From IMG/VR virus record IMGVR_UViG_3300032282_000251, positions 1-24,999 of that record: 24,999 nucleotides of DNA. One strand, given 5' to 3'. This document shows positions 12,961 through 22,907 of the stretch, one piece after another. The stretch is from a virus. Each line of letters starts with the position of its first letter. The first letter of the stretch is position 1. The notes below the pieces were generated by a model. The model made no database searches. It had not been told where the DNA came from and was given only the letters and a program-made list of their open reading frames with translations. The translations under genes were made by a program, and so were the position numbers.

Positions 12961-13257
12961 TTACGGCCCCGTTGGTCCTGTAGGTCCTGTAGGTCCTGTA
13001 GGGCCATAGCCAGTAGGTCCTGTTGGGCCAATAGGACCACCAGAAGGCCCTGTGGGTCCTGTCGTTCCTGTCGGTCCTGTTGGGCCATAACCGGTAGGAC
13101 CTGTCGGCCCCAGCACTGCTGAAGCAGCGCCTGTCGGTCCTGTTGGGCCAACTATTATAACTGTAGAAGACGCAATGCCTTGGAACGTCGTGTTTATACC
13201 GTTTAGAGCAGTAACGATGTTCTTAGTGGCTGTTAATAGATCATCTAAGGAAGCCAT
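12961..13257 (-). CDS. Short collagen-like phage protein
   Basis: This 98-aa protein has an N-terminal helical part of about 35 residues ('[20 protein letters not shown]'), a type I know as a separate small protein in related phages. A Gly-x-y collagen-like tail from about residue 37 to the end then follows, almost all Gly-Pro-Thr, with breaks at 'GAASAVLG' and two 'GYGP' units. It stops inside the collagen run (final residues GPTGP) without any folded C-terminal cap, unlike the large fibre. Start ATG overlaps the preceding stop (TAATG), with GGGAGA upstream. A trimeric, thread-like attachment on the neck or tail is plausible. The gap 12895-12960 after it shows no gene. Confidence 0.72.
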
Positions 13258-16792: not shown

Positions 16793-17161
16793 TTAAACTC
16801 CGGAGATAGTTGTCTCTACCCAAGATAGCGTATTTTCATCCCAACGGTACATCTTGCCGTCGGTCGGCATCGGCACCGGGGCTTGCCAGTCGGCGTTAGC
16901 GTCCAGCACCCAGGACGGGTACGGCTGGGGCGTGATAAACGCATCTAGGCCAGCGTCATAAGTGTAGCCAGGGCCAGCGTAACGCTTCCGCATATTGTTG
17001 TTATAACTGGTCTGCTTCCATGTGCCACCGAGAAGGCGTTCGCAGAAAGCTGCGCCAATGTATTCTTTTTCTACGCCGTCCGCGTCAGCGGTGTCTGAGT
17101 TGCCGACAACAATTACCCGTAGGACTACGTTGTTAGCGTCTAATTCAGCGAAATGGGCCAT
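16793..17161 (-). CDS. Conserved phage tail-associated protein (aquatic phages)
   Basis: The 122-aa protein starts 'MAHFAELDANNVVLRVIVV', with 'LLGGTWKQTSYNNNMRKRYA' and 'AGPGYTYDAGLDAFITPQPY' following and 'SWVLDANADWQAPVP' near the end. This is a set I recognise from many proteins of cyanophages and other aquatic phages, usually encoded near tail or fibre genes; their biochemical role is not known to me. The length is typical and no part is missing. The start has AGG eight bases upstream. It follows the oxygenase remnant, whose relatives are often neighbours of this protein in aquatic phages (from memory). Confidence 0.7.
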   Translation of the reverse strand: MAHFAELDANNVVLRVIVVGNSDTADADGVEKEYIGAAFCERLLGGTWKQTSYNNNMRKRYAGPGYTYDAGLDAFITPQPYPSWVLDANADWQAPVPMPTDGKMYRWDENTLSWVETTISGV

Positions 17162-17171
17162 GTGCCTGATC

Positions 17172-17345
17172 CTACAAATGCAAGCCGGTGAGGCTGTCGT
17201 CGTCTCCGACGTAGCCCACTGAAAAGGTGTTGAACGACATACTAACGTGCAGGTCTTCGCCTTTTACAGCCTCAACCATGTGTGTAAACGATGACGGGAA
17301 CAGGTTGTGCGTAATCAAAACGTGATGGTCCCTGATCCAGTCCAT
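17172..17345 (-). pseudogene. C-terminal remnant of a 2OG-Fe(II) oxygenase
   Basis: A 57-codon frame, from ATG 17345 or from a point further in, ends at TAG 17172. Its last 44 residues read like the end of a phage 2OG-Fe(II) oxygenase: 'NLFPSSFTHMVEAVKGEDLH' followed by 'VSMSFNTFSVGYVGDDDSLT' and the tail GLHL. The Phe-Pro-Ser-x-x-x-His and Ser-Phe-Asn motifs fit the distal iron-binding His and the last strand of this fold. The usual Arg that binds 2-oxoglutarate, just before 'SMSFN', is replaced by a His here. The HxD half of the active site is absent, and TAA lies directly before the ATG. The first part overlaps the end of the Gly-rich gene in another frame. It is most likely a non-functional scar. 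Confidence 0.65.
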
Positions 17346-18220
17346 TTATATACTCTGTACCCGCCAGCAACGGTAATCGTAGGCGAACCTGTCGTGGATG
17401 CGGCTGCGGAATATGTGTCAGAGTAACGAATAATCACAATACCAGAGCCGCCATTGCCGCCTGTACCAGTAGAATCCGGGTCGGTAAATCCGCTGCCACC
17501 ACCGCCACCGCCTGTATTTGCAGTACCAGCCGTAGCCGTAACACCGCCTTTACCACCAGCCCCGCCGCCACCTGAACCACCAGCACCAGCCCCACCAGAA
17601 GCTACGTCATAAAGACCACCACCACCGCCGCCAGCATAAGTTACGCTGCTGCCGCTAATACTAGATGCCGTACCATTACCGCCGTTCCCGCCATCAGTAC
17701 CAGAGCCGTTGCTGCCAACTGCTGAAGCGCCACCGCCGCCGCCAGCGCCGTACCAAGCTGTAGATGCGCCTGTGCCACCTGTATTACCTTGGCTCGGGGT
17801 TGTTGACGGCGTATTACCAGCCCCGCCGGTAAACGTGCCAGACCCGCCTGCCGCACCGCCGCCGCCAGAGCCGCCAGCAGAACCAGCTCGCGCTATACCA
17901 TCATCGTCGTTTCTTCCTCCGCCGCCGCCGCCTGTTGAAGTGATTGTGCTGAATACAGAATCAAGGCCTTTGCCGCCATTACTTGTTCGACTGGATTGAC
18001 CCGCACCACCAGCGCCAACAGTAACGGTTATAGCCACGCCAGAAGTTACCGAAAAACCTGTTGCTGTACGAAATCCACCAGCACCACCGCCGCCAGCAAG
18101 CGTACTTGCTCCACCACCACCACCAGCTACAACAAGGTATTCAACGCTTGGCGTTGTTTTCTTGGCAAACATCCCGTAGGCCAGGGCCGACAGTGAACCG
18201 CGTGTGCTGATAAGAGGCAT
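17315..18220 (-). CDS. Glycine-rich receptor-binding/adhesin-like protein
   Basis: This 301-aa protein has a short N-terminus ('MPLISTRGSLSALAYGMF'), then from about residue 27 'VEYLVVAGGGGGAS', followed by a long Gly-rich region to about 258 with many runs of four to six Gly separated by variable loops. The end is 'GIVIIRYSDTYS', 'TVAGGYRVYKW' and 'TGSGTITF'. Such proteins form polyglycine-II-like sheets and often act as tail-tip adhesins whose loops decide host range. SD AAAGG lies upstream, within the end of the GT2 gene. Its last 31 bases overlap the oxygenase remnant. Coordinates and frame are certain; the adhesin role is inferred from the family. Confidence 0.75.
   Translation of the reverse strand: MPLISTRGSLSALAYGMFAKKTTPSVEYLVVAGGGGGASTLAGGGGAGGFRTATGFSVTSGVAITVTVGAGGAGQSSRTSNGGKGLDSVFSTITSTGGGGGGRNDDDGIARAGSAGGSGGGGAAGGSGTFTGGAGNTPSTTPSQGNTGGTGASTAWYGAGGGGGASAVGSNGSGTDGGNGGNGTASSISGSSVTYAGGGGGGLYDVASGGAGAGGSGGGGAGGKGGVTATAGTANTGGGGGGSGFTDPDSTGTGGNGGSGIVIIRYSDTYSAAASTTGSPTITVAGGYRVYKWTGSGTITF

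Positions 18221-20109: not shown

Positions 20110-20110
<1 letters not shown>
19313..20110 (-). CDS. GT32-type glycosyltransferase (DXD-containing)
   Basis: The 265-aa protein begins 'MIPNVVHFIYFNGPNSREFG' and has the signature of sugar-binding DXD-motif transferases: 'QYQADVVRLQKLFIHGGIYL' (81-99) followed by D100-T-D102 and 'VLMLKPLTPL'. The 'AD..R' pair and 'GGIYLDTD' are the best GT32 (OCH1-like) markers. The C-terminus has 'YTVHLWETIW', also typical for the family. It would transfer a hexose from a nucleotide sugar to an unknown acceptor. Its ATG overlaps the stop of the collagen-like fibre gene (TAATG), so it is coupled to that gene and has no SD of its own beyond it. This is strong positional evidence for a link with the fibre. 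Confidence 0.85.

Positions 20111-22907
<2,797 letters not shown>

Follow-up and report, generated by a model that had tools for sequence, protein, structure and literature searches.

The locus examined here raises the question of what a 57-codon frame next to a glycine-rich adhesin gene represents, and how it came to be so short. The window, which is the whole of a 24,999-base record from an uncultured phage, carries on its minus strand, in this order, a collagen-like fibre gene, two glycosyltransferase-type genes, the glycine-rich adhesin gene, the 57-codon frame, a phrog_7759 gene, a small gene and a gene for an SU10-type adaptor. Two proteins with collagen-like GPTGPTG repeats are encoded in the window, a short one at 12961–13257 and a long one at 20110–22407. 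The coordinates of the features at the locus itself are compiled in Table 1.

Table 1. Features of the oxygenase remnant and its neighbours in the window.
Feature	Position	Strand	Remarks
57-codon remnant of PF13759-type oxygenase gene	17172..17345	-	ATG at 17345, inside adhesin 3' end
Retained oxygenase 5' end outside the repeat	17305..17345	-	Overlaps adhesin 3' end; same as in L010
Deletion junction, with the one copy left of the 9-bp repeat CCTGTTCCC (GGGAACAGG on the plus strand)	17296..17304	-	453 bp missing here
Retained oxygenase 3' end past the repeat, to residue 208	17175..17295	-	
Distal His codon, His 173 of the intact protein, His 22 of the 57-residue frame	17280..17282	-	Retained; invariant in 52 relatives
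R184H, CGC to CAC	17247..17249	-	Arg invariant in 52/52 distinct full-length relatives
P193S	17220..17222	-	Private to the window; Pro in 15/15 close relatives compared, 44/52 overall
Complete glycine-rich adhesin, PF21722/phrog_2295	17315..18220	-	Stop is the ordinary junction with the oxygenase in the window's group
phrog_7759 gene, function unknown	16793..17161	-	In relatives, the gene usually found downstream of the oxygenase

Taken alone, the product of the 57-codon frame gives only weak family matches, to positions 77–101 of the 101-position profile of PF13759 (2OG-FeII_Oxy_5) with an E-value of 0.0025, which is below the curated cut-off, and to phrog_81 with an E-value of 0.0094. The similarity is nevertheless not a matter of chance, because residues 15–57 are 88–95% identical to the oxygenase C-termini of the closest relatives, which have the same downstream neighbour. 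A scan of IMG/VR with these residues matched 14 loci at 74–95% identity, and the frames at those loci read through into intact oxygenases of about 200–208 residues unless the contig is cut. The proteins of the intact relatives match PF13759 at 2.2e-21 and phrog_81 at 4.2e-43. More distant annotated 2OG-Fe(II) oxygenases are found in Phage DSL-LC04 (OR003939.1) and ctNMl277 (MW202483.1), with 58% and 44% identity, respectively, over residues 15–57; unlike the window copy, both are full length. What the remnant retains is the C-terminal FPSSFTH...SMSFN strands of PF13759/phrog_81 oxygenases. Judged by these alignments, the 57-residue frame is a broken 2OG-Fe(II) oxygenase of the PF13759/phrog_81 type, as the preliminary description had proposed, and it lies at the locus of intact homologues. 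Among the auxiliary genes listed for cyanophages is PF13759 (PMC10436341).

The frame was originally thought to match only the end of an oxygenase. Comparison with relatives that have the intact gene at the same place gives a different picture, in which the frame consists of residues 1–17 fused in frame to residues 169–208 of a 208-residue oxygenase that is intact in close relatives. Residues 1–17 (MDWIRDHHVLITHNLFP) correspond to the beginning of the intact gene and are identical in L010; beyond this point the intact L010 protein goes on with TPVAFF..., whereas the window skips from ...ITHNLFP to SSFTHMVEAVKG... (residue 169 onward). The family profile accordingly aligns with the window frame as two segments, 1–17 and 166–208; these overlap because the lost stretch has LFP encoded at each of its ends. 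When the DNA was aligned with the intact genes, a single clean in-frame gap of 453 bp (151 codons) was seen between residues 17 and 169, with both gene ends kept, and the blastn matches to the two flanks stop at 17304 and 17296.

The intact gene of L011 contains both copies of CCTGTTCCC, 453 bp apart, and has only one other direct repeat of at least 9 bp. In L004, L006 and L010 the 9-mer is not perfect in both places, and a perfect repeat in the direct ancestor of the window copy is inferred from the L011 sequence. Deletion between short direct repeats is the simplest explanation of the junction; either replication slippage or illegitimate recombination, acting on the two copies, presumably removed the segment. 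Deletions of this kind in bacterial and phage DNA leave one copy of the repeat at the junction, as is seen here, and only the instance in the window is new; illegitimate recombination has been attributed to mistakes made by the enzymes of replication and repair (PMC2884548). We put at roughly 0.8 the probability that the frame is a pseudogene derived by deletion from a 208-codon PF13759/phrog_81-type 2OG-Fe(II) oxygenase gene.

In order to place this deletion among related loci, relatives were gathered with two anchors, namely the oxygenase and the phrog_7759 gene that follows it. The resulting 52 distinct full-length oxygenases (67 loci) are all 191–208 residues long and none is internally deleted; five further contigs are cut by their ends and were kept outside the full-length set. 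The deletion is carried by only one contig. The junction was not found in other IMG/VR contigs, either as exact DNA or as degenerate DNA coding for the junction peptide, in collections that may omit records very near the window, and neither R184H in other IMG/VR contigs nor stand-alone 57-residue homologues in other phages were found. A host or prophage copy of the oxygenase, sought in one genome per bacterial species, was not confirmed in any of them, and the window holds no second oxygenase of the PF13759/phrog_81 family. The phrog_7759 gene lies directly 3' of the oxygenase in most contigs examined, and the pairing is kept as far as Phage DSL-LC04, where the oxygenase has a small gene upstream and a relative of the window's phrog_7759 gene on its other side. 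In L044 and L048, a gene whose product has a C-terminus similar to that of the phrog_7759 product sits upstream of the oxygenase instead. The contigs of L009, L013 and L014 begin inside the C-terminal part of the oxygenase, that of L013 at the residue just past the LFP repeat; these starts could reflect forking of the assembly at a polymorphic position.

The occurrence in a single contig would also be expected if the missing 453 bp were an assembly or amplification chimera formed at the microhomology, with the gene intact in the phage itself, and the three contigs that start inside the gene near the junction indicate that assembly can break here. Usual assembly k-mers, however, are far longer than the 9-bp repeat, and the replacement of an otherwise invariant residue by R184H suggests that the allele is real and under relaxed constraint, so that we regard such an artefact as improbable.

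The preliminary description also held that the adhesin gene, possibly together with the two glycosyltransferase genes, had replaced the first two-thirds of the oxygenase, and the adhesin running into the frame was read as a sign of this damage. The overlap is real, and the native start of the remnant is likely to be the TTG at 17316–17318, which overlaps the adhesin stop codon TGA and would give 48 codons; in the relatives, the stop of the upstream gene falls exactly at this start point. The adhesin of L004, L006, L010, L011 and L015 has the same C-terminus, ...GYRVYKWTGSGTITF or a near match to it, and overlaps the start of an intact oxygenase; L006 carries both glycosyltransferase genes as well (97% and 95% amino acid identity) ahead of its intact oxygenase. 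The adhesin and glycosyltransferase genes therefore did not remove the oxygenase, whose start is still there in the window and whose loss is internal. Overwriting by the adhesin is contradicted by the comparison with these five relatives and was rejected, its probability being close to nil.

In most relatives, a gene of about 86 codons (phrog_21526 in L002; ...EDSINTIWLPEQ...) lies between the adhesin and the oxygenase and ends exactly at the oxygenase start; it is present in the range listed as L002–L005, L007, L024–L026 and L037–L102, the majority of the relatives. It is missing in the window and in L004, L006, L010, L011 and L015, where the glycine-rich adhesin ends at this point instead. 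The adhesin stop (near 17315) is thus a gene-content boundary in this group, separate from the oxygenase break and probably older. The recombination boundary that had been suggested near 17310–17345 is retained in this sense only; it did not break the oxygenase, because intact relatives share it.

A link between the adhesin and the deletion could still exist if an incoming adhesin module, made up of an adhesin end and the opening codons of a donor's oxygenase, had joined the recipient oxygenase by unequal exchange at the 9-bp microhomology, in which case the segment would have been lost during the adhesin swap and not in a later intramolecular event. Such an exchange is consistent with the sequence on the left side of the junction, where 54 bp match L010 perfectly but L006 at only 87% identity; rightward, by contrast, the closest relative is L006, with 95.5% identity over 5.9 kb. 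It is also consistent with the adhesin, which has about 56% amino acid identity to that of L006 over its first 190 residues, compared with 93–99% for the genes on either side and 95–99% for those beyond the adhesin core; this divergence is what a receptor-binding gene that is exchanged or evolves fast would be expected to show. The identity to L006 already falls at about 16.8 kb, however (88–91% for 16822–17304), with no sharp switch at 17296–17304, and the adhesin swaps of the relatives leave the oxygenase whole. We consider unequal exchange unlikely, if slightly less so than an artefact, and favour deletion between the direct repeats.

Whether the product of the deleted gene could still act was judged from the residues lost and from structure prediction. 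The model of an intact relative has a pLDDT of 85 and its nearest PDB entries are 2rg4 and 3bvc (TM 0.67–0.74), followed by other Fe(II)/2OG oxygenases. With 151 internal codons gone, the full double-stranded beta-helix domain is absent from the window copy, which is left without all of the helices and most of the double-stranded beta-helix strands of the intact model; modelled alone, the remnant is of low confidence (pLDDT 56). The N-proximal, metal-binding block His 105/His 106/His 108/His 110, invariant in 52/52 relatives, is deleted. The substrate-binding arginine is indeed missing, as had been noted from the sequence, since Arg 184, which we take to be the 2-oxoglutarate-binding residue from its place after the distal His and from the general fold, is His in the window. 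These features, together with a match below the Pfam cut-off, set the window copy apart from PF13759/phrog_81 oxygenases, and R184H suggests a non-functional gene. The private changes in the remnant comprise two replacements and no silent codons, which suggests relaxed selection, although they are too few to prove it. The remnant is predicted to be inactive because the helices, most of the strands, the His block and the 2-oxoglutarate-binding Arg have been lost.

The deletion is in frame, the remnant frame is still open with no stop codon, and the start region is intact, as they would be in a functional small protein of 48–57 residues maintained by selection after the catalytic core was lost, such as a binding partner of the adhesin or of the phrog_7759 product. 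One third of deletions are in frame by chance, however, and the loss of the invariant Arg, the low-confidence model and the failure to find a second example among IMG/VR contigs make a selected small protein very improbable.

The remnant is best described as ordinary gene decay, in which a known phage accessory gene became a pseudogene by internal deletion, and the comparison with relatives corrects a plausible but wrong account of recombination at a site where the start codon of the oxygenase abuts a changeable receptor-binding gene. The significance is modest: a phage-borne oxygenase that retains its full length in the 52 distinct relatives compared can be lost, and the phage may do without it, or the loss may be recent.
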